Below are positions 6,044 through 55,059 of a DNA stretch of 64,000 bases, in pieces. This DNA is from Hysterangium stoloniferum (lineage: Eukaryota > Basidiomycota > Agaricomycetes > Hysterangiales > Hysterangiaceae). The position numbers and the translations under genes were made by a program. Every line of letters begins with the position of its first letter. The first letter of the stretch is position 1. Below the pieces are notes generated by a model. It had not been told where the DNA came from. It saw only the letters and a list, made by a program, of their open reading frames with translations, and did not search any database. The stretch lies in NCBI GenBank assembly GCA_015178975.1, contig WHVD01000055.1, forward strand, positions 248,001-312,000, read 5' to 3'.

Positions 6044-7363
6044 ATGTCGCAAGAACAGCTCAATAATCTTGTAGGGAGTACTCATAACAATCGCAGATTT
6101 CCTTTCTAATATCCAAATAGTACGTGGATCGTTTTCGAATTTTGGTTATTGGCAACGCCAACGCTGGAAAGACAACCATTCTGGAAAAGGTGTGCCATAC
6201 CCAGGGTCTCGAACCGGTCTATCTCAATGTAAGTCATCTGTGCCATACCTAACTACAATATCCTCAATGCAGTTTACTTTATTCTTTTGTTACTTCCCTG
6301 ATATAGAGCGATTCAAAGTTGGAGCCGTCGGCCTCGGTCTGTGTTGGATCGAATTACACCTCCAGTGGTGGTGCACTCATGAGAGTTTTTTAGCGCGGAA
6401 ACCATGAGATCGAACATCAGTTTCAATATCCAACTGCTCACGGCTTTGTATTCCATGACTCCTGCGGGTTCGAAGCGGGTGGTGCTGTCGAACTGCAAAA
6501 AGTCAAGGACTTTATCGAAAACCGAGCAAAAGATGGGCAATTAAAGGATCAATTGCATGTCATCTGGTGTGCTGAAGTTCTATGTTATTTTTCCAATTTC
6601 TGACTTTTGCGGTTCAGGTATTGCTTGCCAACTAGTAACGATAGAGGGATGACCAATGCAGAGATGAGTCTGTTTGAGAGCGGCACGGGAAATGGTCAGC
6701 GAGTGTCTGCGTCATGAGCTGAGCCTACTGATTATCATCCAAGTCCCCATTATCGCCATTTTCACGAAGATGGATGCTCTGGACCAGGTCGCACGCAACC
6801 AGTTAATGTTTGATGACGATGACCTTTCTTGTGAAGAAATTGAAGAACAAGTTCCCAAACTGGCAGAGGCCATGTTTCAAGAGAAATATCTCAAACGACT
6901 CGATGAAGTAAAACACAAGCCTCGTTATGTCGTGCTGCTTCGTGGTATGCTCCTTGTCGATGACACAGCAACCCGCTCAGCCATACTGCTCAGACACGAA
7001 CAAAGAGGATACTAATTGTGATGAACTGATCCTGAAAACCTCACAGGCCCTTGACCGTGACACTCTCAAACTGTTCTATCTGTCGATATTTCGGATCGAT
7101 ATTGACTCTCGTATCAAACAAGTTATCAACAGGTGAGCTACCCAGTTCTCCGCCTTCAAAGCAGACGACCAATGCATGCATATCCAAGGATAATTATACC
7201 GCAGGTGCAAGGTGAGGGAAGATATGACCAATGCAAGATGCAAGACAGACTATTGAATTCATGGGTATCACTATTCTCAGCTGTTCTCGAATTAGGCACA
7301 TTTTCCGAAGAACAAGCAAAATCCCTGTTCTGCGAGATCATGTGTTGTTTTCCACACGTCTTG
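6044..7363 (+). CDS. Small GTPase of the expanded Agaricomycete P-loop family, core exons
   Basis: Nine exons join in one open frame: 6044-6070, 6121-6228, 6307-6336, 6394-6566, 6618-6694, 6744-6944, 6994-7132, 7189-7211, 7281-7363 (861 nt, 287 codons). All intron ends are GT-AG and every phase fits. G1 is GNANAGKT (residues 20-27), G3 is DSCG (77-80) within HDSCGFEAGG, and G4 is TKMD (146-149). The segment RGNHEIEH before G3 and the C-terminal block ending FPHVL also fit the family. Such proteins bind GTP and are probably cytosolic; their cellular roles are largely unknown. The start was chosen because it opens a short exon that splices in frame to the P-loop exon. The exon at 6307-6336 is the least certain. 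The frame leaves this block in phase 0 and enters the microexon array at once, which would give the protein an unusual C-terminal tail. A length near 290 residues is typical, so the tail is extra. Confidence 0.82.
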
Positions 7364-8850
7364 GTGCGAGAATGTTGTAACTCCTGCACTTACATGTTTT
7401 AATGTTGGTAACAACAGCCCGTGAGTGACTCGCAGCTATCCTCTTGTCATGTCATTCCCTGATATTTCATTGGTAGAGTGTGAGTGTCCATACATATGCT
7501 GACAATATCCGGAGATTATTGATTCCAGTATCTTGGCCTTGAGTTTGTGAGTTGCTCTTCCTTGGGATTGTAATTGCCTTATCTAACTGCTTCTGAACAG
7601 AATGTAGGTCTACCTTGGGAAGTGTTATCATTATGTTGATCTCCACTTCTCCTTGCTCATCACAGAAAGTATGTAACACAATTTCACTGCAGTCTGCTTT
7701 TTCTGTTCACAATCAATGAATTATTTTATTATTATGTCTCCAGCTGGTGAGTACTTTAGCAAATGCGATTATAATAGTGCTCACGCTAGTTTATCATCCA
7801 CTGCCCTCTTTTAGATTGTGAGTATGGCTTCTTCATATTTTTGTTTGGCTTCTGACATATTTGACAGGTGGTAAGCCCTTGCTGTTGTTTCAAGGCTGTA
7901 TAAGCTTCATCTGGTACATTGCGAATAGGATGTGAGTCTGTCTCCGCCCAGTTTTGCATATACTGGCTCATAGCTGTTCCTGTAAACTACCATGTCGCAG
8001 ATGGTGAGTCTTTTTTGTTCCTTTAGTGGCCTCAATGACCTGTGGATGACTCAGGATGTAAGTATGCACATCCAATGCACAAATGATTGATGTACACTAA
8101 TAAGAGTATGATCCGACTGGTTTTAAACTGCACAGAAAGTGAGCATTCATATGATTATATTGAAGTTAGCCTTATATGATTTCTATATTCTGAAAAGAAT
8201 GTAAATTCCCTTTGAGGTCTAATTACACGCTTCATTCACTCACAGCAATTTTCTGCCTCCTTGGACTTGATAGGCTGTAAGTTGGAATATTCTGTGGATT
8301 TGGTTACTAAGAAATTCTAATACCATATTTGTAATCCTCAAACAGGTTCATGTGAGTTTCTCTCCCAAACAACAATAGTATGCTTATTAAAAACTGTTGG
8401 AGATAGGCTGTAAGCACTGCCCATTGAAGGTTTGGAACCCAGTTCATGATGCATTGGTTTCATCTTGCCAACAGTCTGTATGTGTTGTCTGGTTAAATGC
8501 ATTGTCAAAGTCTGGATAACAATGTTTATGCTCTTTGGTTATGTGGATTGTGTACAGAGAGTGAGTATATCTGACTCTGTTGCATTTCATGGCTAAATGG
8601 GGCGTGGACAATTTAGGAGGTTAGTCATCTACTCATTGTTATGTATAGGAATGTATTGATTGGTGGATTCATTGGATGTAAATCAGAGTGTATGTGTTTT
8701 CCTTTTTGTAACAAATTGAACAAGGTACTACATGGGATATCTGTCTGGGATTGCAGGTGGTGAGGATTCCTTGCTTGCTTGTAATCAGAATGATTATCAC
8801 AAAATAAACTGACATCTTGAACAATTCTTTTTTGGTGGTCATTATAGGAT

Positions 8851-11800
8851 GTAAGTTTTTCCTCCTTTTCTGCCCCTCAAAGCTCATCTCCCTTGTTCTT
8901 CCCAGCGAGTGAGTTTCTGACTTTGTCCACCTTGTCTACCCCTCATAGCTCATCTCCCTTGGCATGCTCTTCCCAGTTTGTGAGTTTCTGACTTTTTCTT
9001 CCTTCTCTGCCCCTCATGGCACATCTCCCTTGGCATGCTCTTCCCAGGGAGTGAGTTTCTGACTTTTTCCTCCTTCTCTGGCCCTCATGGCTCATCTCCC
9101 TTGGCATGCTCTTCCCAGCGAGTGAGTTTCTGACTTTGTCCTCCTCCTCTGCCCCTCATGGCTCATCTCCCTTGGCATCCTCTTCCCAGTTTGTGAGTTT
9201 CTGACTTTTTCCTCCTTGTCTGCCCCTCATGGCTCATCTCTGTTCTTCCCAGGATGTGAGTTTCTCACGGTCCTCCTTGTCTGCCCCTCATTGCTCATCT
9301 CCTTTGGCATGCTCTTCCCAGCGAGTGAGTTTCTGACTTTGTCCTCCTTGTCTGCTCCTCATGGCTCATCTCCCTTGGCATGCTCTTCCCAGTTTGTGAG
9401 TTTCTGACTTTGTCCTCCATGTCTCCACTGCATGGCTCATCTCCCTTGGCATGCTCTTCCCAGCGAGTGAGTTTCTGACTGTGTCCTCCTTGTCTGCCCC
9501 TCATGGCTCATCTCCCTTGGCATGCTCTTCCAGCAAGTGAGTTTCTGACTTTGCCCTCCTTGTCTGTCCCTCATGGCTCATCTCCCTTGGCATGCTCTTC
9601 CCAGTTTGTGAGTTTCTGACTTTGTCCTTCTTCTCTGCCCCTCATGGCTCATCTCCCTTGGTATGCTCTTCCCAGGATGTGAGTTTCTGACTTTGTCCTC
9701 CTTATCTGCCCCTAATGGCTCATCTCCCTTGGCATGTTTTCCCAGGATGTGAGTTTCTCACTTTGTCCTCCTTGTCTGCCCCTCATTACTCATCTCCTTT
9801 GGCATACTCTTCCCAGCGAGTGAGTTTCTGACTTTGTCCTCCTTGTCTGCCCCTGGCTCATCTCCCTTGGCATGCACTTCCCAGTTTGTGAGTTTCTCAC
9901 ATTGTCCTCTGTGTCTCCTCCCCATGGCTTATCCCCCTTGGCATGCACTTCCCAGCGAGTGAGTTTCTGACTTTGTCCTCCTCCTCTGCCCCTCATGGCT
10001 CATCTCCCTTGGCATGCTGTTCCAGCAAGTGAGTTTCTGACTTTGCCCTCCTTGTCTGTCCCTCATGGCTCATCTCCTTTGGCATGCTCCTCCCAGTTTG
10101 TGAGTTTGTGACTTTGTCCTTCTTCTCTGCCCCTCATGGCTCATCTCCCTTGGTATGCTCTTCCCAGTTTGTGAGTTTGTGACCTTCTCCCCCTTGTCTG
10201 CCCCTCATGGCTCATCTCCCTTGGCACATTCTTCCTAGGATGTGAGTTTCTCACTTTGTCTTCCTTGTCTGCCCATCATGGCTCATCTCCCTTGACATGC
10301 TCTTCCCAGCAAGTGAGTTTCTGACTTTGTCCTCCTTGTCTGCCCCTCATGGCTCATCTCCCTTGGCATCCTCTTCCCAGCAAGTGAGTTTCTGACTTTG
10401 TCCTCCTTGTCTGCCCCTCATGGCTCATCTCCCTTGGCACACTCTTCCCAGAAAGTGGGTTTCTGACTTTGTCCTCCTCTGCCCCTCATGGCTCATCTCA
10501 CTTGGCATGCTCTTCCCAGGATGTGAGTTTCTGACTTTGTCGTCCTTCTCTGTCCCTCATGGCTCATCTCCCTTGGCATCCTCTTCCCCCTTGGCACACT
10601 CTTTCCAGTTTGTGAGTTTCTGACTTTGTTCTCCTTATCTGCCTCTCATGGCTCACCTCCCTTGGCATGCTTTTCCCAGCAAGTGAGTTTCTGACTTGGT
10701 CCTCCTTGTCTGCCCCTCATGGCTCATCTCCTTTGGCATGCTCTTCCCAGCGAGTGAGTTTCTGGCTTTGTCCTCCCCATCTACCCCTCATGGCTCATCT
10801 CCCTTGGCATCCTCTTCCTAGTTTGTGAGTTTCTGCTCCTTGTCTACTCCTCATGTCTACCCCTCATGGCTCATCTACCTTGGCATCCTCTTCCCAGGAA
10901 GTGAGTTTCTGACTTTGTCCTCCTTGTCTGCCTCTCATGGTTCATCTCCCCTGGCACCCCCTTCCCAGAAAGTGAGTTTCTGCCCTTGTCCTCCTTGTCC
11001 GCCTCTCCTGGTTCATCTCCCATGGCATGCTCTTCCCAGCCAGTGAGTTTCTGCCTTTGTCCTCCTTGTCTGCCCCTCATGGCTCATCTCCCTTGGCATG
11101 CTCTTCCAGCAAGTGAGTTTCTGACTTTCTCCTCCTTCTCTGCCCCTCATGGCTTATCTCCCTTGGCATTTCCTCCCAGAATGTGAGTTTCTGACTTTCT
11201 CCTCCTTGTCTGCCCCTCATGGCTGACCTTCCTTGGCATCCTCTTCCCAGTTTGTGAGTTTCTGACTTTGTCCTCCTTGTCTGCCCCTCATGACTCATCT
11301 CCCTTGGCATCCTCTTCCCAGTTTGTGAGTTTCTGATATTGTCCTCCTCCTCTGCCCCTTATGGCTCATCTCCCTTGGCATACTCTTCCCAGGAAGTGAG
11401 TTTCTTTTTCCTCCTTGTCTGCCCCTCATGGCTCATCTCCCTTGGCATCCTCTTCCCAGCAAGTGAGTTTCTGACTTTGTCCTCCTTGTCTGCCCCTCAT
11501 GGCTCATCTCCCTTGGCATGCTCTTCCAGCAAGTGAGTTTCTGACTTTCTCCTCCTTCTCTGCCCCTCATGGCTTATCTCCCTTGGCATTTCCTCCCAGA
11601 ATGTGAGTTTCTGACTTTCTCCTCCTTGTCTGCCCCTCATGGCTGACCTTCCTTGGCATCCTCTTCCCAGTTTGTGAGTTTCTGACTTTGTCCTCCTTGT
11701 CTGCCCCTCATGACTCATCTCCCTTGGCATCCTCTTCCCAGTTTGTGAGTTTCTGATATTGTCCTCCTCCTCTGCCCCTTATGGCTCATCTCCCTTGGCA

Positions 11801-12855
11801 TACTCTTCCCAGGAAGTGAGTTTCTTTTTCCTCCTTGTCTGCCCCTCATGGCTCATCTCCTTTGGCATCCTCTTCCCAGTTTGTGAGTTTCTGACTTTGT
11901 CCTTCTTCTCTGCCCCTCATGGCTCATCTCCCTTGGTATGCTCTTCCCAGAATGTGAGTTTCTGACTTTGTCCTCCTTATCTGCCCCTAATGGCTCATCT
12001 CCCTTGGCATGTTTTCCCAGGAAGTGAGTTTCTCACTTTGTCCTCATTGTCTGCCCCTCATGGCTCATCTCCCTTGGCATCCTCTTCCCAGGAAGTGAGT
12101 TTCTGACTTTGTCCTCCTTGTCTGCCCCTCATGACTCATCTCCCTTGGCATCCTCTTCCCAGTGGGTGAGTTTCTGATATTGTCCTCCTCCTCTGTCCCT
12201 CATGGCTCATCTCCCTTGGCATACTCTTCCTAGCGAGTGAGTTTCTTACCTTTTTCCTCCTTGTCTGCCCCTCATGGCTCATCTCCCTTGGCATCCTCTT
12301 CCCAGGAAGTGAGTTTCTGACTTTGTTCTCCTTGTCTGCCCCTCATGACTCATCTTCTTTGGCATGCTCTTCCCAGCGAGTGAGTTTCCCACTTTGTCCT
12401 CCTTGTCTGCTCCTCATGGCTCATCTCCCTTGGCATGCTCTTCCCAGAAAGTGAGTTTCTGACTTTGACCTCTTTGTCTGCCCCTCATGGCTCATCCTCC
12501 CTTGACATGCTCTTCCCAGCGAGTGAGTTTCTGACTTTGTCCTCCTTGTCTGTCCCTCATGGCTCATCTGCCTTGGCATGCTCTTCCCAGCGAGTGAGTT
12601 TCTGACTTGGTCCCCCTTGTCTGCCCCTCATGGCTCATCTCCTTTGGCATGCTCTTCCCAGCGAGTGAGTTTCTAGTTTTGTCCTCCCCATCTACCCCTC
12701 ATGGCTCATCTCCCTTGGGACACCCTTTCCAGGATGTCAGTTTCTGACCTTTTCCTCTGTGTCCCTTGTGGCTCATCTCTCTTGCCATGCTCTTTCTAGG
12801 ATGTGAGTTTTTGATATTTCTTCTCCCCGTTCCCTCCCATGGTTTCTCTTACTAG
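8851..12855 (+). repeat. 71-bp intron satellite (microexon array, homogenised half)
   Basis: About 56 units of mean length 70.8 bp. Each starts GTGAGTTTCTGACTTTGTCC, holds TGGCTCATCTCCCTTGGCAT and ends CTCTTCCCAG, followed by a variable triplet. Triplet counts: TTT 14, CGA 12, CAA 8, GAT 7, GAA 6, AAA 3, AAT 3, and one each of GGA, CCA and TGG. Unit bodies differ by only a few bases; the triplet is the most variable site. The unit at 10523-10608 looks like two units fused after loss of the inner AG. Open frames on either strand here are repeat artefacts. Confidence 0.9.
11055..11860 (+). repeat. Recent 420-bp tandem duplication inside the satellite
   Basis: 11055-11440 and 11475-11860 read identical base for base at an offset of 420 bp (six units with their microexons). 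Differences reappear just outside (11041 versus 11461, and 11441 versus 11861). This is block-wise growth of the array, and 6 x 3 nt keeps the frame. Confidence 0.8.
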
Positions 12856-12947
12856 GTGTGATCTCCCTATCTTTTGCAATTGTTTCTATTTTCTATTTTT
12901 TTTCTTTCTTTGATAATTGTGCTGTCCTCATTCTTTTATTCCCTCAG

Positions 12948-13446
12948 AATCACTACTCCCAAAAATGCTTTTCCTCCATCTCAACACATCCAATATATGA
13001 GGTATGATAAACTTTGTAAATATCTAGCTAGTGGCTACCATTGGTTTATTTAACCTCTCAGTCATGTTCTGGCCTGCCCCAATACAAGGTTGTCTGGCTT
13101 AGCATTGGTACTTTGCACTTATTTGTTCCACTCATTTCACTCTAACACATTATTCTTAGCTGCCATGGTCATCAGTTGTCATTTGCTCGATACTTCACCA
13201 AGTGTGGACTTTCAGAAGACTGCTAAGTCTTATATGGCTTCCTCAGCTAAGACTTTGGTAGATGATGTCAAGAGAGTATTTCAGAAAACAATCTCTTGTA
13301 GTGATGGAGCCAGTGATGTGGTCTTTGATATAATGAAAAAGAATGTCTCAGGTATGTTTCTTCCCCTTTGTGATCATCTGCTACTGATGATACTTACTGG
13401 ACCACTTGTGGTTGTTGTAGCTTTTGCCATTTCTAGTCAGTATTAG
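12948..13446 (+). CDS. Possible 3' exons of the microexon gene
   Basis: Candidate exons after the array are 12948-13001 (54 nt), 13062-13088 (27 nt), 13160-13351 (192 nt) and 13421-13446. All have GT-AG borders, and the first two stay open in the phase carried from the array. The last two read through to a stop only if one base is carried in (frame containing KTLVDDVKRVFQKTISCSDG), which does not match phase 0 coming from the array. Either a 1-nt shift occurs within the array (a 4-nt exon GAAT at 8649-8652 would give it), or an exon border is wrong, or the gene no longer ends in frame. I do not recognise a domain here. Confidence 0.35.
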
Positions 13447-16190: not shown

Positions 16191-19100
16191 TACTGAATAC
16201 TTACTCATGGATCAATAATAACATCCTTAAACACTACATTTGCAGTCATATCAGTGTCATGGAGTAGGATTTTCACTCTTCCCCAATTTGCCCCTCTTAA
16301 AAATGCCAACATAAAGTGTCCATGTGAGAACACAGGACTACACAGATCCAATCCAACTAATTTTAAAGATTGACCTTGTGATTTATTGATAGTCATAGAA
16401 AATAGTAGCCTGACTGGAAACTGCCAATGATGCAGTTCAAATGGCACTTGTTTTGTAGTTGGAATAATTGTTATTCAAGGGATGAATGCCAGCTCTCCTG
16501 CTGAAGGTCCTGTAATGATCTTTACTTCAAGTACTCTGTGAGTCATTTGTATTAGCTGCAGTCTTGTTCCATTACAGAGTCCTTGTCCTGGATCCAAGTT
16601 TCAAAGCAGCATCAATGGCACTCCAGGTTTCAAATGCAATTTACTTGGTGACAATCCTCCAAAGTTGATTGAGTTTAAGTACTCAGGATATAATGTCTCA
16701 TTGGCTCCATCTTTGACACTGTCTGCACTGTGGTAGGTTTGCCCAATCCCTGGAAATTTTTCAAAGAGCATGTCATTGACTTGATCTACATCTGAATTTC
16801 AAGGACAGAGAATAGCCTGCTCCAAGAAAAACTCATCAGTAAAAGCCTCAGGATCATGTATGTTTGGATAAATAGTTGAGACTAAATCATCTACTGTTGG
16901 TCCACATAGCATGTGTTCAGGGACTTTAAACATATGATCAAGAGGCATGTCCTTTCCATGTCCAATATCCAAAAGCCACTGAGCAAAAACAGCACTCTCT
17001 TGATCAGTAGGATCTACATGCATATTCTCAGTCAAAAACAGAATCTTGGCATTATGCCAAAGGTGAGACTGTGAGATACATGCACCAATAATATCTTCTT
17101 TTGAACCTTTAGGAATGACAGGCAATGTCTGTTGAAAGTCACCACCCCATGCTACTATAATGCCTCCAAAAGGAATATCCTTATTAAGGATATCTCTAAG
17201 ATGCCAATCTACTGCCTCACAGGCAAAGCAATTCTGCATTGGAACCTCATCCCAAATAATAAGGCTGACCTCTTTCATTAGATTAGCCTTATCTGAGCCT
17301 TTTGTAATCCTGGTGCCCCCAGTCTTACGCACGGACCCTTTAGTTTTACGTGATTACATAATCACCGCGTTTTACGGTATAAGTAGCCGGGAAGTTTTCA
17401 GGACCTTAGATCCTACCGTACGCTGCACTTGCCTGTATCTTGTTCTGCTCTGGACAATACACTGTGGTCCTGTCAACTTGTGTGACCGCCAGTGATCCCA
17501 ATTGACGACGGGATTACACTTTTTTTTTGACACCGGCCATTTGTTATTTCTCATCCAGCACTTCGTTGTGTTTGGCCCTCCAGACCCTTGGCTCTTTCGT
17601 TCCACTGGATCTCATTCATTCATTCCAAAAGAAACCAACTTCTTACCTTCCTGGTCGAACCCGATCTGCATCACCACCGTTCACTCGTCAGACCGCTCAT
17701 TCACATTCCCTAGGGTTCCACACTCCCTTGTCCCGTACACGCCTCGCAACCTCGCGTATACGTGCCGCCGCACACCCTTGCAAGTGCTCCCCGTGCAAAT
17801 ACGCAGCGCCGCACACCGCCGCACCCTCGCACGCGCACACATCCGTGTCGCCGCACCGCTGCGCACCCTGCACACGTACGCGCACCCGCGCACGCCGCCG
17901 CACCGTCGTCGAGTGCCCCCACACGTACGCGCGCATGCACACACATCCACGCCGCCATGCACCGCTGCGCACCCTGCACACGTACGCGCGCCCGCGCACC
18001 CGCGCACGCCGCCGCACCGTCATCGAGTGCCCTCACACGTACACGCGCATGCACACACATCCACACCATCGCGCACCCTTGCACACTGCACACGTATGCG
18101 TGCACACACACCCATCCACGCTGCCGCGCACCCTTGCACACTGCACACGTACGGGCGCCCCCGCATGCCCTGCACCGTAGTCGCGCACCTGCATTTGGAG
18201 AAATGTTTTATGTGAATAATTGACGATTAGAAGCCATTATTTTGGATCCCCTTGTGTTTTTTTTGTTTGTTTTTTTTAGTGCCGTATCAATTTCCGTCGC
18301 TACCGTGTGTTTTTTTGGTCGGGATACAGACTCCGCCGCCTGAAGCTCCGCATTAACAGAGGAGGTCCAGCAGGGTTGAATCTGGGGTGGTGGGTTGGTT
18401 TTTGTGTGGGGAGGGGTGTAATCCTGGTGCCCCCAGTCTTACGCACGGACCCTTTAGTTTTACGTGATTACATAATCACCGCGTTTTACGGTATAAGTAG
18501 CCGGGAAGTTTTCAGGACCTTAGATCCTACCGTACGCTGCACTTGCCTGTATCTTGTTCTGCTCTGGACAATACACTGTGGTCCTGTCAACTTGTGTGAC
18601 CGCCAGTGATCCCAATTGACGACGGGATTACACCTTTCTTCATTGTACACATGGATTTCTCATCAACTTCAAGGGGAATTTGACACATACTGTGAGATGT
18701 CTGCCCACCACTCAGAATAAGTGAAGCAATGCCAGAGGAGGCAACACAGAGTACAATGAGTCCTTTTCCTCTACAGGCATGTGCCAAAGTATTCCAAACA
18801 AATGATTTTCCAGTACACCCAGGTCCATTTAAAAAGAAAAGCTTTCCATCTACTCCAGTTTCATGCCTTGCAATGACAGCATCCATAATTTGATTGTATG
18901 CAACCTTCTGGCCCTCATTCAACTTTTCAATATTTATATGTGCTTTTATTTGCTCAGTTGCCTTATCATATGCCCTTTGTTCATTGATGAATCTATTTCC
19001 CACTCTGTCTTCCCATGGCTCTGTAAATTGAGGCATATAAGGGTACTCTGAGAGTGGTTTCCCACTTGTATGAAGAATTTCATCAAGCTTAAAGAGGCCA

Positions 19101-19690
19101 AAGTCATGGACTGTCTCATCAGATGGCTCTGATTGATTTGGTTGAGGAAGATGTGTCTGAATAAAGTGTTTCAAGTCATCACAAATGTCTGCTTTAAATT
19201 CATGCCAGAGTGCAGCCAGATCAGAAGGAAAGCATTGGCAGAGAATAGTAGCAAATAGTTTTCTTAATTGAGATCCAGTCTGCATAGCCTTTGGCTCTCT
19301 AAGACACAACTTCCATTCTTTATCATCTTCAAGTAGACCACGTGCCATGCAGGCTGCTTGGAAGGAAGGATAGACCTGTCCTTCATAGGTCCTGAGATCT
19401 TCAAAAGAAGTTGTCCCCTTGACAACTGTAAGTAAAGTATGTAAGAAGAACCTTGGGCCACTTGAGGGTCCTGCAAAATGAATACGTCCAATGGCAAATC
19501 CCCTTTTCCTTGGATTCCATTTTCTGTTTTTTGAATTCCATGTGAAAAATTCTGGAAAATCAACATAGTGAAGTGAATTGGCTGCTCTACCATTAAGGCC
19601 TATTGTATTGTTAGAATTGGCCTCAGAGTATGCCATCAACTTAGTCTTGGAACAATGGGCACCATCCAAATCTTCTTCTGGACCCTCCAT
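16190..19690 (-). pseudogene. Helitron PIF1-type helicase domain, interrupted
   Basis: From the right: Helitron linker and helicase N-part (18638-19690) with Walker A LNGPGCTGKS and the block VASSGIASLILSGGQTSHSM; after the inserted element, 16799-17302 with Walker B LIIWDEV and GGDFQQTLPVI; finally 16205-16500 with helicase motif VI SMTINKSQGQSL. Helitrons are rolling-circle DNA transposons and this domain unwinds the donor strand. The frame is lost between Rep and helicase near 19700, at least twice more between 16440 and 16800, and by the 1.33-kb insertion at 17303-18632. It was coding for the mobile element and is now inactive. Confidence 0.9.
17303..18632. mobile_element. TRIM-like non-autonomous LTR element, young and whole-looking
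   Basis: Two 216-bp direct repeats, 17303-17518 and 18417-18632, read identical. Both start TGTAATCCTGG and end GGGATTACA. The flanks carry the 5-bp duplication CCTTT (17298-17302 and 18633-18637). A purine run GTGGGGAGGGG precedes the right LTR, as a polypurine tract should. The 898-bp interior has no recognisable gag or pol. Its middle (about 17750-18190) is GC-rich with diverged tandem units of roughly 105 bp (CACACGTACGCGC, CGCCGCACCGTC), which create overlapping open frames on both strands that I do not call genes. It sits within the Helitron helicase, so it is younger than the Helitron. Confidence 0.88.
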
Positions 19691-19704
19691 GCCATCAAAG
19701 ATAA

Positions 19705-21116
19705 CTACTGGTGATTCTCTAAATGCACAGCTATGACAGCAGGAATTTGAGTATGTATCTCATTTTCCAAAAGTCTCCAAAATGCTTCATGTGCACTGAC
19801 ATAGCAGGCATCAATATATTGTTGAATTTCATTTTTGTTCTTGCCAAACTCCATTGTTGTACGATCATGTCCTTTGTATATATACTTGTGAATATACTTA
19901 ATGGAGCAAACATTAAAAGTCATCTCAACATTGATATGACATTCCAGAATGAGAAGAAGGGCAGCACAGTAAGGGACAACATGTCGATTGTCCAGCTCAT
20001 GACCTCTGACTTTATGTTTTCTGCCATCATTTCTATGGCAGTACTTTGAATAGCCATCTTCATTTATACTTGTAGATTCACAAAAGGGCTTGGGAAAATG
20101 CTTTGTACATCTGTTATCTTTGATACATTTTTCACCACATACATGAGTCATGAGCTCAGATACCAACTTGTAAAGCTTTGGTTGCTCCTCTTGATCTGGA
20201 AACTCTGCAGATATCATAGAATCAACTTCTACAAGAGTCTGAAGCTTTGCCCCCTCTTCAAACCATATGAGCAAATGCATATGAGGGAATCCACACTTCT
20301 GAAATTCAATGGTATGGACATGGGCAACTGTTTTACCAAGGTAATTCTTCTTCATAATGAGCTGAAGCAAGTGTGCCTTTTTCAATGCAAAAACACATGA
20401 CACTATATCTGGGCGATCGGCTGCAGTTTGGCCTGGAAGAAGTGCTTCAGTTATTTCCCTCCATTTGGGGTTGGCTGTCATAGTAATAAACATGCTTGCA
20501 TTGCCATATTTGCATGATATAGCCAGTGAATTTTGCAAATTTTCCATCATATCCTGACTACTACCTTGGAAGGTTGCTGGCAGTATAAATCTACTTCCAA
20601 TTTCATTTGGCTCAGGTTGCTGGTTATTATCCTGTACTGTGAAGGCATCAACCACCTGATGGTACATTTCAGCTCGTAAAGTGCCTTGATTGTGTCTTAT
20701 CCATGATAGCCTGCTTTGCTCCGCTGCTGCCCATGCATCTACAATGTATTGCTGAAGCAGTTTTCCACCCCTTAGAATTGTAGTTGCTTCACCAATTCTT
20801 TGAAAGAGTCGATAAGCATAATACTTTATCTGGGAGACTTTTGTCTGCTTTTTCTTCTGCCTATTCTCTGTCACTTGTTCAGGTTCAAGTTCTTCAGTAA
20901 TTCCTTGCACCTCATCCTGCTCCATAGCTAGCTCAGGAGGTGGTATAGCATTATCAACTGGAATATCTATTTGCTCAGGTGGGAGAGGTACAACTTGGGG
21001 AACCACTTCAGGTTGAGGAATCACTACCTCTGGCAAGTCAGGTACTATCTCCTCAGGAGCTGGTTCAAAGACTTCTGGCTCTGGAGCAATCTCCTCAATG
21101 GCTGCTGGGGCTGGCT
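19705..21116 (-). pseudogene. Helitron Rep (HUH endonuclease) domain
   Basis: One open frame of about 440 residues. It has the Rep-typical stretch SRFILPATFQGSSQDM, the HUH-region motif GFPHMHLLIWF, and the tyrosine region IKYIHKYIYKGHDR with two candidate catalytic tyrosines. The upstream end is acidic and Pro-rich (PEVVIPQPEVV). The frame runs upstream to a stop or possible splice acceptor near 21113; the usual N-terminal helitron-like region was not found further right, so the copy is 5'-incomplete. It ends next to the helicase frame at 19690 with a frame change, and in an intact element the two would be one protein. Rep nicks and joins single-stranded DNA during rolling-circle transposition. 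Confidence 0.9.
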
Positions 21117-25159: not shown

Positions 25160-26210
25160 ACATTACATCAGCATATATGCTACAATGGAAAGTAATAGAA
25201 ACTACTGGAATATTCCAGCAGTTTCCAGGTAAAATAGCTAAAAAATAGGATAGAAATAATTACTAGAATATTCTAAATGTCTCAGATCTCAGTGTATATA
25301 AGGAGCTCTGCTCCAGCCATGAAATATATGTAACTTATCTTAACCCATTTATCACCACATCTGTGTGTCACTGCAGCAGCAATTACATGTAAATTCCACC
25401 CCTAGTTGGGCTGTTGGACCCTCTAGTTGAGCTTCTGGCACAAACTCTGGATCTCTTGTCACTTCTAGTTGAGCTTCTGGCAATAATCCTACCCCTGGTC
25501 ACCTCTAGTTGAGCTTCTGGCACTAACTCTGGATCCTTGCCACCTCTAGTTGAGCTTCTGGCAATAATCCTACCCCCTTGTCACCTCTAGTTGAGCTTCT
25601 GACAACAATCCTGTTCTCCCTTGCCACCTCTTAGTTGAGTAGTTGGCTATCAATTAAAGTAATAATTTTTTTTGGTTACATTGTTGAGATTAGAAATACA
25701 ATTCTAATTTCTCCTGGTATTGATCATAAATACTGAGAATATTCTTGCATAATCTTTGAGACTACATTAAGATCCTGATAAGTTAGTATCACAGTAGATC
25801 TGGTAGGCTGGTTTAAATACATAAAGCATATATTAGCCAAATATTGTTTTATTCTATAACTAAGCCTTTGACCTGTTTATAAATATTTTTACTGTTTGTT
25901 AAATATGTAGTATAGTATATACATATATAAACTACCTAGAATCAAAGTGGAATCAAGTTTTGGAATCAGTGAATTGTTATTTGTATTCTAGTAGTTGTTT
26001 TCATGGAAAAAGAACAGCTTGCAAAAGCAGCTCTTAAAACCTTCTTTGCAAAGTAGGGTGCATATATTCAAGTAAACTCTTGACTTCAGGGATTCTAAGT
26101 CTATTCAGGCTGCCACTGATTAATATCAAATACTTAAATTATTTTACCCTGCAGTGAATTGAGCATATAGTAGTAAAATAAGGGTAATACATCACATATG
26201 TACTGTACTA
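25160..26210 (+). repeat. Dispersed LTR-like repeat, family G, copy 1
   Basis: Aligns over about 1 kb with 48428-49475. Both copies carry TCTCAGTGTATATAAGGAGC (a core-promoter-like TATA box) and then several diverged tandem units of about 45 bp built on CACCTCTAGTTGAGCTTCTGG (25400-25640). The layout (promoter, then repeats, then AT-rich tail) suggests an LTR, but I could not fix its ends. Confidence 0.6.
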
Positions 26211-28786: not shown

Positions 28787-31700
28787 GGACTCCGTACATC
28801 AGACTTGTCTATGTTCAACTTCGTTACATTGTGTTTCAGTCACCGGAAAACCCACCGGACTCCGTCTCTGTCTATGTCCGACCTCGTCCCGTGCGTCAGT
28901 CACCAGACCCCACTCAGAGAACCAACCCGTCATCCCTCTAACAGAGCCCCATTCCCATTTTAGTCAAATGACCTGTCACAATTCAGACTCCACTTCCGCT
29001 CCATTTCCTGTTATGGTTTATGATTTGTCACTATTCGGACTCTGCTCCGTTCCGTCCCATTCCTAACACCAAATTTGGTGTTTACTATTCCTGTTTTATG
29101 TTTTGCTCATTTCATTTCATCATACTGAATTCGGTATGACATTCACTCCACAGTCTATTTAAACTGGCAGATGTTGTACATACAATCCAGTCAGAAAATC
29201 GGCTTAGATTCCCCCCAGTAATCTAATACATTTTCCACTCTAAACTCCTACTTGAATTACACCGCTCACACTAGTCAGAGCCCATGGGCTCTGGCGCATC
29301 TATCTCTCTCACCAATCTCGACTCACGACCCATGACCTCCGACCTACGACCCCTCGACCCACGACCCCTGCCCGAACTCTCTGGGATTCCCATCCACCTG
29401 TCTGAAATTGGACAACACAATCTAGCGAGGGCGCAGCCTATAAGCTGAAGCCAAGTCCTACCAGATATCCCGTGGGTTTCTCTGGAGACCTGCCTTGTAA
29501 GTATCCTAACAGTATCTTCTGACTAAGACTCGCAGATTGTTTTCAATATGCCACCAAGAAATAAAGCTAACACAGAGGCATCATTACCTGGACCGTCAAC
29601 TCTTCATTCCCCGTTAACTTTGTATACCAGCCAGACACTTGCAAACCAGTCGGAACCCATGGAAGAAGCCCATATCAAAGAAGTCCCAGAAAACCAGGAT
29701 GAATCTGAGCATGAGGACAAATCCGTGGCCCCCGACAAGGGCAAAGGTGTCGAAAATCCTCCGTCTAACCAACAACCGCACTTGGGGGACCCTACTTCTG
29801 AATTTTTATCAGGTACTATAGATAAATGTATGACACACCTGCTTGAAGAATGAAAGAAAAAGGAACAAGAACCTCCACAGTCAAAAGTCAATGCTCTGGA
29901 ACCCTTCATGGGTTCCAACCCAAACAAACTCTCTACTTTCCTCATTGTGAAGAGTGGTAGAAGTTCAGACCGTTCTATATACGAAGAAATGAGTAGAAGA
30001 GGAGGATATTGACCTATTCAGTGCAATATAAGAGAAAGTGAGAGAAAGAGCACAAGATGACAAAGGAGTCAACGAGTGCGATGGTTCGAGTGGAGGCCTC
30101 GACTATTACAGTTCGAGGCCAGAAGTATTCAGTAGTTCAGATAATGCTACCTATGTGGTAGCTGACACGTTACCCTGATCACCGCTCATAGTAGACCTAG
30201 TTTGTGTCTTACGAGTGGTGGTTCTTGGGTTAAAGTGTGTCTGAGTTCTAATTGGTGCTGAGTGCACCCACAAGTATACACAATGCTTCGAACTAATGAA
30301 ATATGCAATATTCGAAGAATATGAAAGATAGGAAAATATGAATAGAATATGTAAAATATAAATAAAATAAAAGGAGTGTTTTACCACAATGAAACTGTGG
30401 TAAAAGCATACTCCTCACACTCATGCAATGTCACTTCAATTTCCGCGATCGATCTGCCACATTCTCCACGGACTCCCAAAAAGTCAACTACGCACTTTCA
30501 TACTTGTCAGGATCTGCATTGAAATGGTTCGAACCAGCTTTTAGCGGAATTTCCGAGGAAGAGCCACTTTGGCTCGAAAATTGGGATGCTTTTGTTGAGA
30601 AGCTTGAAACCAACATTGGCCTGTATGACCCGACAGGAGAAGCCGAAAACAGTCTCACAAATCTTCATATGAAGGACATGCAGTGCATCACGGACTATAT
30701 CGTCCAATTCAATAATCTTGCAGCTCATTGTCAGTGGGGCGATCCCGCTCTCCGCCACCAATTCTACGCTGGTCTGCCATCCCGTCTTAAAGACAAAGTC
30801 TCGAAAGGAGAAGATGGCAAGCCAAAAACCCTGTCCCATATGCACCTCAAAGCTCAAAATGTGGACACATGTTATTGGGAACATCATGCAGAAGTTGCCC
30901 ACGAGACCTCCGTGGACAAAGTAAACAAGTCCACGGCCAATAAAACCAACAACAACAACTTGTCAACCAGCAACCAAAACTCCACACAATCTGACAAGAA
31001 GAACAATAAAAAGTCTTCTAACAACAACAACAACAACAAGGACAATAACAAAGGTCAACAGTTCAGCAAGCAAGCTGGAAAACCCGACCTCTCAGGCAAA
31101 CTCGGATCCGATGGCAAATTGACCCCACAGGAAAGACAACGTCGTATGGATAATAACCTCTGTCTCTTGTGTGGGAAACCCGGTCATCGAGTCCCAGAAT
31201 GTCTGCTGGCAAAGCAAACTCTTCAAAGGGTCAAACAGCCAAGGCCTCCACGGAAACCCCATCGAAGGACAAACTGGCTTCCCACTCGAAAAAAGAGTAA
31301 GCAACCACTCCACACGGGTTGGGGGTTGTGTTGCCTCTCCACACATTCAAGAGTTTACTCACCTCAACGCATCCACTCTTTCACATTCTGATTCATTTTT
31401 CGTTAAACTTATGTCTAATATGATTCTGAAATTCGTTTTTTCAGCTCTTATAGATCCCGGCTCGACTCATTGTTTTTTAGATACAAAATTCACGCAAAAA
31501 AATTCTTTGTCAACTTATCCGATAAATCTGTTGGTCTCCACCTCTTTGATGGCACAAGTAATTTGGTTGTTACCCAAGCTTGTGATTTATCCATCTGTTT
31601 CCTGTGTGGAACATCTCATTTGGTCACTTTCTATGTGACCCAGTTAGACTCAAGTTGCTCAGTGGTCCTTGGACACAACTGGCTTACCCACTACAATCCA

Positions 31701-34700
31701 TTGATTGACTGGATAGCTAACAGGATAACATTCTGGACTCCCACGGCAGCTGAGGAAACTGCACCTGTCCCAGCCTCCACGGCACCCATGGCCTTCCTGG
31801 CACCTGCAGTCTCAAGGACTCCTGTGATCCCTATGGCACCCATGGCTTCCCCGGAACCCACGGCACCTCCATCTATTTCTCTGATTAATGCTGCAGCTTT
31901 TATTAGGGCTTCAAAAATGGACAGGTCCCAGGCGTTCACTATCAACTTAAAAATTGATGAAGCAACTGGACATTTTTCAACCCCAGTATCTGAATCTGAG
32001 CAAGCCGCTGATCTAGAAGGCATCCCGGAAAAATATCATGACTTCGTGGATGTTTTTACCAAGCGGAAAGCTGACCGGCTTCTGCCCCACAGAGAATATG
32101 ACTTAAAAATCGATCTTGAAGATGGTGCCCAGCCACCCCTAGGACATATTTACCCACTCTTGTCCACGGAACTTTCCACAATCTGCGATTTCCTGGATGA
32201 ACATTTGTCCATAGGTTTTATTAGACCCTCAAAGTCTCCTTTTGGAGCACCTGTTCTGTTTGTCAGAAAAAAGGATGGATCCCTTTGACTATGTGTTGAT
32301 TTTAGAGGACTCAATGCTGTCACAAAAAAAAATAAGTATCCACTTCCACTCATATCTGATCTGCTCAATGCTCTGCAGAATGCCTGGATTTACACCAAAA
32401 TAGATCTCAAACACACCTATCATTTGGTCCGGATCGCTGCGGGTACGAATGGAAAACCACTTTTAGAACCCGCTATGGGGCCTTTGAGTGGTTGGTGATG
32501 CCCTTTGGACTCACCAATGCTCCATCTGTTTTTCAGCATTTTATCAACGACATTTTCTCCAACATGCTTGATGTATGCATTATTGTTTACCTGGACGACA
32601 TTCTTATCTACTCCGAGAATCCCGTGGAACACGACAAACAAGTCCATGAAGTTCTCCAGAGACTCAGACAACATGGTTTATTCGTGAATGGAAAAAAATG
32701 TACTTTTGACATGGACTCTGTGGAATACCTGGGTTTCATCATGGGACCCAATGGACTCCCATGGACAAAACTAAAGTGCAAGTCATCAAAGATTGGCCTG
32801 AACCCCAAAAAGTTAAAGATATACAATCCTTCCTCAGCTTTGCCAATTTTTACAGACAGTTTATCCGTGGATATTCCGACATCACAGTACCCCTTACCCA
32901 TCTTACACATAAGGATACTCTGTGGAATTTTAACGATAAGTGTCAAAAAGCTTTCAATCTTTTAAAAAATTCTTTTTCCTCTGCTCCTATTCTGTCGCAT
33001 TGGAAACCGGACTTCCCACTCATCATTGAAATGGATACCTCGGATTACGCACTTGGAGCCATTCTGTCTATCCAGGACTCTGACAGAGAAGTCCACCCCA
33101 TGGCATTTCTGTCCCGGACCTTTACCAGAGCAGAGCTCAACTACGACGTTCATGATAAGGAACTCCTGGCAATTCTTTCAGCTTTCAAAGCGTGGCAACA
33201 CTATTTGGAAGGCTCAGGAACTCCTATTGACATTGTAACAGATCACAAAAACCTGGAATACTTTTCTACCACAAAACTTTTGACCTGCCGGCAGGCCCAC
33301 TGGTCTGAATACCTATCTGCCTTCAACATGATTATCTGCATTTACCCGGCCATCTCGGCAGCAAACCTGATGCTTTAACTAGATGATGGGATGTCTATCC
33401 TAAAGAGGGGAGCAATGACTATGCCATGGTAAACCCACACAACCTGAAAACTATTTTCACAAATCAAAAACTTACCACATCGGTCCGTGCAACTTTCCTC
33501 ATCAATCCCATTGTCTGTGGAATTATCATTATGGATATTGAGAAGTTACATCAAGATATTCTATCAGCAATTCCCCTAGACCCAATAACTAAAGCTCATC
33601 TTGACAATGCCATGGACCCTGATCAACCTCAGTGGTCTCTTGATCAGCATGGTTTCATTAGACTTGACGATCGGATCTATGTACCGGACTCTAATGGCCT
33701 CCGCCTCAGGATCCTTCAATACAAACATGATCATCCACTCTCAGGACATTTCAGGTACAACAAAACTCTATCATTAATAAGAAGAGAATACACTTGGCCC
33801 AGACTCCGTGGATTCATTAAGCACTATTGTAAATCTTGCACTACTTGTCCCCACTCAAAATCTCAGTGACACAAGCCATACGGCCTTTTGAAACAATTCC
33901 CGGTACCAGAACACCCGTGGAATTCTGTCTCTATGGATTTCATTGAACACCTACTGGATTCCGAAGGCTTTTCCACCATTCTAGTCGTTGTTGACAGATT
34001 CTCAAAACAAGGTATATTCATCCCTACATATGACACAATTATATCCATGCAGTTAGCAGAACTTTTTATTATCCACGTATTTTCCAAGCACGGGGTTGCA
34101 TCCCACGTAACTTCTGACTGAGGATCAGAGTTTGTATCTCACTTCTTTAGATCCCTTGGGAAATCCTTGGACATGACATTACATTTCACATCCGGACATC
34201 ACCTGGAAGGTGACGGACAAACCGAATGTGTCAACCAAACATTGGAACAATATCTCCGCATATATTGCAATTACCAACAGGACAATTGGAAATCCTTGTT
34301 ACCACTTGCAGAATTTGCTTACAACAATGCACCTTCAGCCACTACTGGTGTTTCCCCGTTCTTTGCAAATAAAGGATATAATGCAAATATTACAGTACAT
34401 CCAGAATGAAATCTCACCTCTGCTCGCACTCAAGAGTTCACTGTGGACCTCCACAAGCTCCACGAGGGACTCCGGACTGCAATATTGTCCACCCAAGAGC
34501 AATACCAACATTCAGTGGACAAACACCGGATCCTGCCACCAAACTTCAAGATTGGGGATCATGTTTTTGTCAAAGCTCAATTCTTCCGGACTACCTGTCC
34601 ATCAAAAAAGCTTGCTGAAAAATATTTAGGTCTGTTTGAAATTATCACACCAGTAGGTTCAGTCTCTTGGACTCTACGGCTTTTGGATAGCATGCATGTG

Positions 34701-35874: not shown

Positions 35875-36686
35875 GCTAATCAGGGGGCTGACAATAGAGA
35901 TCATACTAGTTGGGAGGTCCAACTCTATGAACATAGTGGATAGACAAAGTTCAATACTTAGCTCAATTGGCCAGGGGACCGAAATACTAAGAGTTGTAAG
36001 GTAAGAGTTTGCAGCTTGCCAAGAACATCTTTGAGGATATTGAGAAGGGAGAAAAGAGACTGAGAACTAGTAGATGTAAGGGCTACCTCTAACAGGACCT
36101 GTGGTACTCACACTAGGCTAGCAGAGGGATATCCAAAGTATATTAAGTACCTAATATATACAGGAGACTAAACTACTCACCTAGCAGAGGGATATCCAAA
36201 GAGAAAAGGATAAGGGGACGGCCTCTGCTAGGCGATCCGAAACTAGGGGGTGGCTAAAAATAGAATGACAGCTCACCCCAACGGTCACTAACTACCTACT
36301 CTACCCTGGAGATATTCCTAGGGAGTGTTAGAAGTCATGGAAAAATACGAGAAGATTACAGGAAACAGTACTAATAACCCTCTTGGGGCTAGATTACTCA
36401 GAGGAACTTATTGGGGTTTTAGCAATATATATATCAACCATATTGAAGGCACAAATTGAACGTCCCCTTACAGTAGAGGGTAATCTAAGTTGATTTTTGA
36501 ACTGAAGAACTGTAGCATACATGAAGAAGATTTATACTACAATGAGACATGACCAGAGGGCTGATCAAGGAAGAGAAGAGTGAAATGGATTATAAGAAGT
36601 GGATGACAAGGTACTGATAGTAGGATGATGGAGGGCTACAAGACTAAAAACAGCTTGTCAGGGTCTGAAACAATGGGGATCCTAGC
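35875..36686 (+). repeat. Partial LTR, family H
   Basis: Aligns with 13594-14361 and ends GGGGATCCTAGCA. It directly abuts the gypsy pol remnant on its right. Confidence 0.65.
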
Positions 36687-39522
36687 AGAGTTCTGTTATT
36701 TTAGTAGGTGGGGCCAATTCCAATATAGCAGAATCCTTCTCTTGATGGGTTGAAAAACCAAGTTGAAGTACTTTATGTCCAAGTAAAAGAATAGAGTTGT
36801 ACCCTACATAACATTTATTGGGGGAGAGTGTTATGCCAGCTGCAATAATTGCTTGTAGTATCCAATCCAAATGGTCCAAATGGTCATCCCAAGTCTTAGA
36901 AAAAATCACAATACCGTCTATGTAAACCAAACAGAAAAGCCATAGATAAGGTGTTAGTACAGTTTGCATAACACTCTGAAAGATCAAGGCTCCATTCCTT
37001 AGTCCAAATGGCATCCATTTAAACTGCCATGGTCCTCTATGGGATCTGAAAGCAGTTTTCAGCTTGTCTTCATCCAGCATCTCTAGTTGGGTGGATCCTG
37101 CTAGTGTGTTGAATGAAGACAAGACATTAGATCCAGATAAGGCTTGCATTATTTCAGACTGGCATGGTAACAGAAATTCATCAGGAATGGAGACTGTTCA
37201 ATTTTTGATAGTCTATTACTACTTGAATCTTTCTATTGTGATAGAAGTTCAATGACCCTTTGTGTTGAAACCAAGTATCCATTTGTTCATTGATAACCTT
37301 TCTGTTTGCTGGAGAGGTCTGGAACATAGGCATCGAGATTGGCTGAGCATCACTCTTCAAGGGGATGCTAGCTTTAATGTCAACTTGTCCTAATTGTCCA
37401 TTGACCCCAAAGGCCTGGGTGTTCTTGGTCAATATAGAACTAAAGCAGGGTGAAACATTGATGGGGATATCAGGTCCTAGGTTGACCAGTTTATGTAGGT
37501 CCTCAGAGTGAAGTGTCTCAGTAGTGGTGACCTCTGAAGTCTTAGGACCTGCAGGGTTGAAATTATCTTCTGTGTCACACTCAAAAGATGGTTCAAATGA
37601 TTGAGGGTTAAGAATCCGATCCTCTTCTATCTTGGAAAGACCCTTGATTAGATGAGTGATCTTCATTCTGGTAGACTGCATCATCTGTCTCTCTGTTGGC
37701 AATGCAGATTTATGAGCCCACCTATTGGCATCATGGATTAATCCAATGGTTTCTCCTCTCCTGATAATTCAGGAATTAGAGATGGATTAGCAAAGGGTAT
37801 AGTGGCTCTTTCCTTAGAGATTGTGGTAGTGGGGGCTGCAAGTATAGTGCCATTGTCATTTTGCAGAATAATACCTTCGACTATCCATTCATCACCCATG
37901 AGGTCTCCAACATACATAAATGGACACCAGTCTCACTGATTCCAGTTCAATTGTGCAGTCCTTTAGTGCTCATGCAACCTTTTCAGTGTGCACTCCCTTG
38001 TCTGGTTTGGAAGTCAATTCAGGTTAATTATTGAATCATTCTTTGAAAGGGGCTTTACTAATCAAAAAAGTTAGAGGTTGTGATTCCTTTGAGGAGCTGA
38101 CTGGGATGGAACCCATCCTTCCAGGGAGGATAAACCTGGATCCTAACAGTTGATATCATTTAGAGTCCCAACTTCATAGTTAATGTGGAAATCTTCTCCT
38201 AGGAGGATTGGTATGGTCATTCCTCTGATGACATAAGTTTTGGCCATGAACCTGAGTAGTATTCCATTTTTGTCCTCAAAGTAGATGGGGAGGTTGATAT
38301 ATCCCAAGATTTTAGCATTACCCATAAGCTGAATGAGATGCAATTTAAGGCCTTGCTTCAGTTTTGGTTGGTTCTCTATCCCTTGTAGAAATCTTCTGAA
38401 ATTAAGGATAAGTTGGCTCCAGCATCCAGTCTGATCTTAATTAGTTCAGATGACTCCAAGCTCCCTATACACCTGTATACATGCTGCATGGAAATCCCTA
38501 TACTGGAGTAACCACTTGGAGGGTCTCTTTTTTGATAAATAATGGCCATATCTCCTTTCATTATTCAAACTAGGTCAAGGATACTGTATTCTAGGCCTCT
38601 TGTTCTCTTGTTCCAATGCTGGTTTGACATCCCTTCTGATGTGTCTGCATGGCATCATCATCTTCCTGTTCCAAATCAGAGTTCTCATAATGCATTGGTG
38701 CAGGCAATGGCCCTGGATCAAAAGGGAAGGTGTCATCTTGAGACTCCTTCAGTTGGGAGGGATCCTCTATGTGTTCCTGACTGTGGCATCTTGACTAATT
38801 AATAAATACTTCTTCATCTATGACTTCCTCAATGGATAGTGATTCAAGCTGTTGCAAGTTCCTTTCTACCTTCAGGCCCTTAGGGTCCTGATGGTGGACA
38901 TTTAGCCAATCTCCTTTCATTAGAAACTCATGATCTGATATTGATATATGCTTCTGATACTTCATTCACAAATGAATTACATTCTGACTCTATGGGGGCA
39001 TCATCCTCTAATTGAGGGGCATAGGTGGAAATGAAAATTGATTCATTATTGAAGTTATTTACTTGTCCTTGTATACTTGATCCATAAACCTCTTTATACA
39101 ACCTCTGATCCTTGGCTTCCTCAACTGGATTCTGCATGGAGCATTTGTTGATTGAAACATAGTGAGACATCTTGCTGTGTGAGGACAATCAATCTTAAAA
39201 TGTTCCAAGCTCCTGCAAATCCAACACTCTTTAGGAGGTTTAACAATGCTCTTGTTGTCACTTCTCTCAAAGAAGAGCTTCCCATGTCTTTTGCCTTGTG
39301 CCAGGCTAGCTCTTTTTGTGTGTTCCTGTCCATAGTTTGACTAATGAGAATGTGGCCACAAGTGATCAAATTATCCCCAGTGAAGGACTCCTCTATTGTT
39401 TTAAGACTAGGCTCCTCCTGTTCCACAATCATGACCCTAGGGTTTTGGAACCAATAGCATTCTTGATGCATCTGATTCCGGATGTTAACAAGGGTTTCTT
39501 GTAGGTTGTTGGTATAGGTCTG

Positions 39523-40644
39523 TGTAAAGATCCGTTCCCGGAAACTCTTCAGAGTATTTCCCGGATATTATCTCTGGGTCCAAACTATCTTCCGGACCAG
39601 TATCAAGATCCGGAATCCACTGGAACCTGAACCTCATCCCTTCAAGGTGACTTCCGGTCAGACTTCCGGTCAGACTTCCAGTCAGAATTCCAGTCAGACA
39701 TCTGGTCAGACTCCCGGTCAGACTCCCGGTCAGACTCCCGGTCAGACTCCCGGTCAGACTCCCGGTCAGACTCCCGGTCAGACTCCCGGTCAGACTCCCG
39801 GTCAGACTCCCGGTCAGACTCCCGGTCAGACTCCCGGTCAGACTCCCGGTCAGACTCCCGGTCAGACTCCCGGTCAGACTCCCGGTCAGACTCCCGGTCA
39901 GACTCCCGGTCAGACTCCCGGTCAGACTCCCGGTCAGACTCCCGGTCAGACTCCCGGTCAGACTCCCGGTCAGACTCCCGGTCAGACTCCCGGTCAGACT
40001 CAGTCAGACTCCCATCTCTGATCCGACTTTCCACCCCAAGTCTCCGATCCGACTTTCTGACATCCACCTCAAAATCCGACCTGACTTCCGACTTTGGAAC
40101 ATTTGTAGTTTCCATATTTCCGAACCTCATCCTTGTTCCGTATTTAGTAACTGACAGGTTAACAGTTATTCATTTGCTTGTTTATTGTTCTTGTTGTATT
40201 CCTGTTTCGGAATCTTCAGCCTAATCTGTCTTATTATACTTCTAGATTTGTAGTACAATTACTGGAACATCTATATAGTCTTCCATAGCCATGTATTTAC
40301 TCTTTAGTTTTAATCTCGAATTAGTTTGTATCTCTTCTGTCTCTCTGTACGCTCAATCTTCGGAACTCTCTGGACTTCAGATATCCAGAACTCCCAGAAC
40401 TTCTGAGTATCTGTAAACATTCTGACATATATTCATCCTCTGAAATATGGACACCCGAGTGAGTACACGAGGGCGCAGCACATAAGCTGAAGCCAAGTCC
40501 ATCTGTACTCTGGTAATATTCCGATACTCCCATTACTAATTCCCGGAAACTCCCGGACTAATTCTCCGAAACTCCGAGGACATATTTCTGGGAAGTGTCC
40601 GGAATATCCATTGGAAATTCTGCCCCGAGATCCGGAACTTAACA
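39523..40644 (+). repeat. Solo LTR, family C, with a 12-bp minisatellite
   Basis: TGTAAAGATCCG ... GAACTTAACA, 1122 bp, flanked by the 5-bp duplication GTCTG (39518-39522 and 40645-40649). Inside, about 39707-39998 is some 24 near-perfect copies of ACTCCCGGTCAG. It also carries the shared LTR motif at about 40480-40500. Confidence 0.88.
39648..40010. repeat. 12-bp minisatellite (ACTCCCGGTCAG)n
   Basis: About 24 uniform copies bordered by diverged ones (39648-39706). Because 12 is a multiple of 3, one plus-strand frame reads (TPGQ)n and one minus-strand frame reads (ESDR)n, giving open frames of 124 and 162 codons. These are repeat products within an LTR and not supported as genes. Confidence 0.9.
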
Positions 40645-55031: not shown

Positions 55032-55059
55032 CCAGGCTTCCTAACCTCACCTTATTGGA

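Follow-up and report, generated by a model that had tools for sequence, protein, structure and literature searches.

In schistosomes and tapeworms, micro-exon genes (MEGs) contain several micro-exons, that is, exons shorter than 70 nucleotides (nt) with a length divisible by three, and a gene is assigned to this group when it has at least seven exons, at least half of which are micro-exons, with a run of at least four of them; skipping of such an exon can alter the protein by as little as one residue (PMC7653826). Single-nucleotide exons have been described in Arabidopsis APC11 (PMC4674806) and Fusarium CYP621A (PMC12940212), indicating that tiny exons are spliceable, and the authors of the former study favor intron definition, with the two introns leaving in succession (PMC4674806). 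A 3-nt exon is also described in Drosophila homothorax, where it is alternatively spliced from another exon and no array is reported in the excerpts (PMC7392893). Here, we describe a computational analysis of 64,000 nt of the genome of the basidiomycete Hysterangium stoloniferum (GenBank assembly GCA_015178975.1, contig WHVD01000055.1, positions 248,001 to 312,000 of the forward strand; this whole stretch is hereafter the window, and all positions refer to it), in which a predicted gene with P-loop GTPase motifs on the + strand carries 78 consecutive micro-exons at 7418-12802, of which 76 are 3 nt, one is 6 nt and one is 18 nt long.

With 90 exons, including these 78 in a row, the predicted gene would be classified as a micro-exon gene by the operational rule of PMC7653826, and it shares with the schistosome and tapeworm genes the presence of several micro-exons divisible by three. 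However, the exons described here are almost all 3 nt long, they are separated by introns of 49-88 nt, they lie mostly in a satellite run and they belong to a fungal GTPase gene; the single-codon unit, the length of the run and the predicted satellite origin would set this locus apart from the MEGs as those excerpts describe them. Similarly, the cited genes with exons of 1-3 nt have one such exon each in the excerpts of those reports (PMC4674806, PMC12940212, PMC7392893), compared to 78 micro-exons in a row in the present case. Introners and introner-like elements (PMC9860276, PMC4457414) are comparable in that near-identical introns multiply, but they are described as entering many genes, whereas the copies found here are arranged head to tail in one gene, with one codon each. 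Stwintrons (PMC8469720) and recursive splicing (PMC8605326) also remove nested or abutting introns one after another, but they rely on an interrupted splice element or on a juxtaposed acceptor and donor, and no row of retained coding triplets is described in the excerpts of these reports. At the present locus, an acceptor directly abutting a donor was found at none of the 78 steps, as 3 nt separate them in 76 cases and 6 and 18 nt in the others. A literature search, judged mostly from titles and the openings of abstracts, returned no gene with consecutive single-codon exons. If confirmed by RNA, the splitting of exons observed here would go far beyond any gene known to us.

The micro-exon array was delimited by a simple pattern. 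The + strand of the window has 71 matches to the strict motif YAG-NNN-GTRNGT, 69 of which fall in the 1-kilobase (kb) bins from 7 to 13 kb, and the whole minus strand has only two. Relaxing the donor to GTNNNN gave 75 three-base exons within 7400-12810, to which three further exons were added manually (a 3-nt exon preceded by an AAG acceptor, and the exons of 6 and 18 nt), while an overlapping match at 11041 (CAG TGA GTTTCT), 4 nt past the used match at 11037, was omitted from the chain. The initial annotation, made from the same DNA, had proposed about 78 consecutive single-codon exons, 75 of them of exactly 3 nt, introns of 50-88 nt, the strict motif at every step and a tail of about 85 residues. 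The run of 78 was recovered, although two of its members exceed one codon; the figure of 75 corresponds to the motif with relaxed donors and rises to 76 with the hand-added exon; the intron range was borne out except for its lower end, which is 49 nt; the motif is not strict throughout, given the single AAG acceptor and some donors that read only GTNNNN; and the predicted tail agrees with the 84 codons of the 78 micro-exons in the model. All 78 micro-exon lengths are divisible by three, whereas the 77 introns between them fall into all three length classes modulo 3 (10, 20 and 47 introns), which indicates that the exons, rather than the length of the unit, hold the frame. The acceptors preceding the micro-exons are CAG (66), TAG (11) and AAG (1), and the donors following them read GTGAGT in 63 and GTRAGT in 66 of 78 cases, compared to GTRAGT in only one of the 11 other introns of the gene model; such strong donors would fit a compensation for the near-absence of exon sequence. 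In this arrangement, 252 coding nt take up 5,385 nt of DNA, and the array is divided into a 5' part with 22 micro-exons and a 3' part that forms a tandem repeat of 71 base pairs (bp).

The chain is much longer than chance would produce. With a stricter donor, the longest chain in 300 dinucleotide shuffles of 7381-8856 was 2 (mean 0.31), compared to 9 observed, and the motifs averaged 0.35 (maximum of 3), compared to 18 observed; for 7381-12860, the longest chain in 300 shuffles was at most 1, compared to 57 observed, and it was also 1 in the remaining + strand and on the whole minus strand of the window. The complete model runs from the ATG at 6044 to the TAG at 13446 and holds 499 codons without an internal stop. 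When the micro-exons are concatenated, frame 0 is free of stops and the other two frames contain 1 and 15. No stop was found among the 76 triplets, compared to 5.5 expected when bases were permuted within each codon position (P = 0.00075), a value that is optimistic because the units are related and because the permutation breaks up the frequent TTT, which raises the number of expected stops. A long conventional open reading frame (ORF) across the block was considered and rejected, since the longest stop-free stretch has 94 codons on the + strand and 93 on the minus strand.

The 5' part of the array is not a satellite. Of its 22 introns, 21 lack clear mutual similarity (210 pairs, mean z of 0.28, with six pairs at z 3.0-4.4), and 20 of them score z of 1.7 or less against the satellite consensus, the other one reaching 2.9; the 22nd intron (8851-8905) is satellite-like (z of 9.8). 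Moreover, 7418-8850 is absent from the repeats listed by Tandem Repeats Finder. All donors in this part begin with GT (GTRAGT in 12 of 22) and 21 of 22 acceptors are YAG. Because the introns are mutually dissimilar and do not form a tandem repeat, the 5' part is not explicable as a satellite containing splice-like words.

In the 3' part, Tandem Repeats Finder detected a 71-bp satellite at 8856-12814 with approximately 56 copies, in which each unit is made up of an intron of about 68 nt and a single codon, the intron being repeated and the codon variable. The exons within the satellite are therefore not independent events, which corrects the initial annotation. No copy of the unit or of the consensus intron was detected outside the block within the window (blastn, E up to 1). 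The satellite contains a three-unit (212-bp) higher-order repeat and a recent exact duplication (Table 1) in which both copies carry the five codons QNFFE, and this part of the array shows how such a gene can grow. Serial insertion with a 3-nt target duplication was also considered and is unsupported, as adjacent codons are identical in 9 of 54 cases, near the value predicted from codon frequencies (0.149). A helix-like spacing of the F and W residues (p = 0.0048, 5000 shuffles) is suggestive but was not relied on, because it is confounded by the higher-order repeat.

Departures from the consensus in 55 aligned satellite units revealed opposite behaviors of splice sites and codons. Only 2 of 330 cells differ from the consensus at the 5' splice site (+1 to +6) and 4 of 157 at the 3' splice site, with eight gap cells at its C, the position to which the aligner assigned missing bases, compared to 225 of 3217 (7.0%) in the intron interiors. 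The eight core splice columns (GTGAGT plus the final AG) have a summed variability of 0.036, compared to 0.50 when eight columns were drawn at random (P = 2e-5). The adenine at position 44 of the unit (A44), a putative branch point within GCTCATC, showed no change in the 55 units, although further invariant columns exist. On the other hand, exon bases 1, 2 and 3 depart from the consensus in 62, 53, and 44% of the units, the first two rank first and second in entropy, and the summed variability of the exon triplet (1.58) is larger than in any run of three neighboring intron columns (maximum 0.65, mean 0.19). On average, pairs of units diverge by 63% in their exons and by 14% in their introns, and codon identity stays at 12-17% across intron identities from 65 to 95% (about 15% over all pairs). 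Codon choice is also biased: for Q, K and E, the third base is A in 19 of 20 micro-exon codons, compared to 44 of 78 codons elsewhere in the gene (p = 0.0012), which is the bias expected from the avoidance of a second AG acceptor within 3-nt exons, and for F, D and N, it is T in 29 of 29 micro-exon codons, compared to 42 of 68 elsewhere in the gene.

Judging from the DNA sequence, the block probably consists of genuine consecutive spliceosomal introns around 78 micro-exons, which would encode an 84-residue linker from the GTPase domain to the C-terminal segment. Among the three options put forward in the initial annotation, consecutive single-codon exons are best supported by the continuous frame, the near-invariant splice sites and the hypervariable codons. 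The option of one long intron, or dead sequence, filled by a chance-expanded 71-bp satellite with meaningless splice-like motifs would account for the clean tandem repeat at 8856-12814 and its exact recent duplication, but it fails for the 5' part, where 22 micro-exons are not satellite and 21 dissimilar introns keep their donors, acceptors and 3-, 6- or 18-nt spacing; as the variability of the 5' splice-site columns of the satellite is also about one-tenth of that of the interior, and no triplet of the satellite varies more than the codon, we regard this explanation as very improbable. Stepwise (recursive) removal of a single 5.6-kb intron, in which the YAG-NNN-GTRNGT motifs would serve as ratchet points, the codons would be mostly or all lost and the protein would have no tail, appears rather unlikely. 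Known ratchet points place acceptor and donor side by side, as described in the excerpts of PMC8605326, and splicing of a GTAACT donor at 7377 directly to the exon at 13160 keeps the frame. Nevertheless, an in-frame skip arises anyway with a chance of one in three, and ratchet points give no evident reason for a 3-nt spacer, for multiples of three, for stop avoidance or for the excess variability of the codons, all four of which were seen. It is also quite improbable that splicing and translation of the array ceased only recently, leaving a silent or degrading allele: the transposon-rich surroundings, with Helitron, gypsy-type and Tc-type elements in the window, and the odd acceptors at two GTPase junctions would agree with decay, but the 499-codon model has no stop, the GTPase motifs are intact, and the splice sites in the repeat units, including those of the recent exact duplication, are near-perfect.

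Several observations weigh against the reading of the block as consecutive micro-exons, in addition to the TTT effect in the stop test. The statement that the upstream GTPase exons join in one frame and hand over in phase 0 holds, though only through a weak donor (GTGCGA at 7364), and two GTPase junctions (before 6744 and before 7189) require CCAAG acceptors. A further point of doubt on the model is the length of 145 nt of the intron that closes the block, and the 46-nt exon at 13062-13107 was picked because it preserves the frame. Besides, the in-frame join from 7377 to 13160 skips the whole block to give a product reading FPHVLVREC-SAMVISCHLL, so that a shorter isoform may exist, or the block may be removed stepwise. 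The stop test has no power for the 5' part alone (0.18 stops expected in 20 triplets), and both it and the codon-usage test count the units as more independent than they are, given their relation by duplication. Moreover, intron columns I58, I26 and I17 match or exceed the third exon base in entropy, and codons are shared more often among close copies: pairs with a single intron at least 95% identical share the codon in 21 of 63 cases (33%), compared to about 15% overall, and those in which each of the two flanking introns reaches 97% identity do so in 6 of 7, five of these seven pairs coming from the recent duplication. The codons are therefore not freely reshuffled; one unit pair with identical introns carries TTT and GAA, and the identity patterns of codons and introns indicate that codons travel with the DNA in fresh duplications and later diverge much faster than the introns. 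Finally, no GTPase relative was available for a conservation test, as none of the 8 pattern-matching stretches in viral_contigs or the 29 in genome_contigs was confirmed as one; both sets are virus or prokaryote collections and have no bearing on fungi.

Short introns of fungi are recognized across the intron. If the block is spliced as consecutive micro-exons, each intron would be recognized by intron definition through its own short and strong signals, and neighboring introns would be excised one after another, since simultaneous occupation of an acceptor and a donor 3 nt apart is hardly feasible, a point also made for the single-nucleotide exon of Arabidopsis (PMC4674806). Every excision would add one codon to the growing exon and re-create a donor behind a longer upstream exon. 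Growth of the gene would proceed by tandem duplication of intron-plus-codon units without shifting the frame, and because exon lengths are multiples of three, a skipped unit would leave an in-frame tail, shorter by one residue for a single-codon unit, so that one gene may give a family of tail variants. As a tentative proposal, which we consider possible but by no means established, the array might be viewed as a 'codon satellite', in which nearly every residue has an intron-bounded repeat unit to itself, the introns being homogenized and constrained by splicing and the codons diversifying under protein-level selection; unequal exchange would shift the length residue by residue and in-frame skipping would vary the tail within an individual, resulting in a tunable hypervariable GTPase tail.

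If true, the locus would allow a direct test of the spliceosome at sites 3 nt apart, of the order of intron removal and of the accuracy of each step, given that 99% inclusion per exon leaves less than half of the transcripts complete (0.99^78 = 0.46). The gene would, in addition, document in nature how tandem duplication can multiply introns while the frame is left unharmed, and it would be unusual in having exons that are far more variable than its introns. Ordinary gene prediction is expected to overlook such a gene.

Table 1. Features of the predicted GTPase gene and its micro-exon array.
Feature	Position	Strand	Remarks
Eight ordinary P-loop GTPase exons	6044-7363	+	One stop-free frame, ending FPHVL in phase 0
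GTPase exons 1-4	6044-6070, 6121-6228, 6307-6336, 6394-6566	+	
GTPase exons 5-8	6618-6694, 6744-6944, 6994-7132, 7189-7363	+	
Hand-over intron	7364-7417	+	54 nt; weak donor
5' part of the array	7418-8850	+	22 micro-exons: 20 of 3 nt, 18 nt (7529-7546), 6 nt (8346-8351)
3' part of the array	8851-12802	+	56 single-codon exons (8906-12802) in 71-bp tandem repeat
Recent tandem duplication	11055-11860	+	386 bp identical at offset 420; period of six units
Last intron of the block	12803-12947	+	145 nt; all other introns of the block have 88 nt or less
Four C-terminal exons	12948-13001, 13062-13107, 13160-13351, 13421-13446	+	Ends in TAG

The translation of the exons upstream of the array contains GNANAGKT, DSCG and TKMD in this order, which we take to be the P-loop, DxxG and [NT]KxD motifs of GTPases, and on these motifs the predicted product would belong to the P-loop GTPase superfamily. 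The Pfam search returned 11 families at E up to 1, every one below its cut-off (MMR_HSR1 with 17.7 bits, compared to a cut-off of 21.9), the search of PDB for GTPase relatives gave only four weak P-loop matches (E of 0.45-0.95), and Rfam gave no match at the gathering score. The C-terminal intron at 13108-13159 (52 nt) has a CTAAC close to its 3' end. Upstream of the gene, GTTTATCACTCACTGAGAG has exactly two + strand occurrences in the window, at 5630 and 5739.

Arrays were also sought in viral_contigs with a two-gap pattern, which yielded 23 stretches, none of which was taken as related. The candidate L005 reached a chain of 10 and was rejected because it is a 27-bp repeat within a long bacterial-type ORF, in a setting that is phage-like by the neighboring genes; L016 reached a chain of 4, and the other 21 had chains of at most 3.

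Mobile elements are distributed along the rest of the window. A Helitron-type element on the minus strand (16799-21114) combines a Helitron_like_N match (E of 1.1e-53) with two PIF1 helicase pieces. Gag and reverse transcriptase matches at 30393-32965 (+) and a second reverse transcriptase piece at 36682-37197 (minus) represent retrotransposon remnants that we read as gypsy/Ty3 type, and an ORF at 47435-48085 (minus) encodes a Tc-type transposase (HTH_Tnp_Tc3_2, E of 4.8e-11). A Whi5-like ORF is present at 43859-44878 (minus; E of 3.2e-6, 27.1 bits with a cut-off of 25); like the short introns and the type of the GTPase, it hints at a fungal host, probably an agaricomycete. Other tandem repeats include about 30 copies of the 12-bp unit GACTCCCGGTCA at 39649-40013 (96% matches, several frames open) and two arrays 23 kb apart, at 25420-25639 and 48639-48778, with a near-equal 41-bp consensus unit (CCTCTAGTTGAGCTTCTGGCAATAA...). 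Lastly, the ORFs at 54555-55040 and 58569-59153, both on the minus strand, have the long stretches HTDFNEVASEFIVQLA and VWQTRQLSGEELTAIRGFFE in common and are apparently paralogues.

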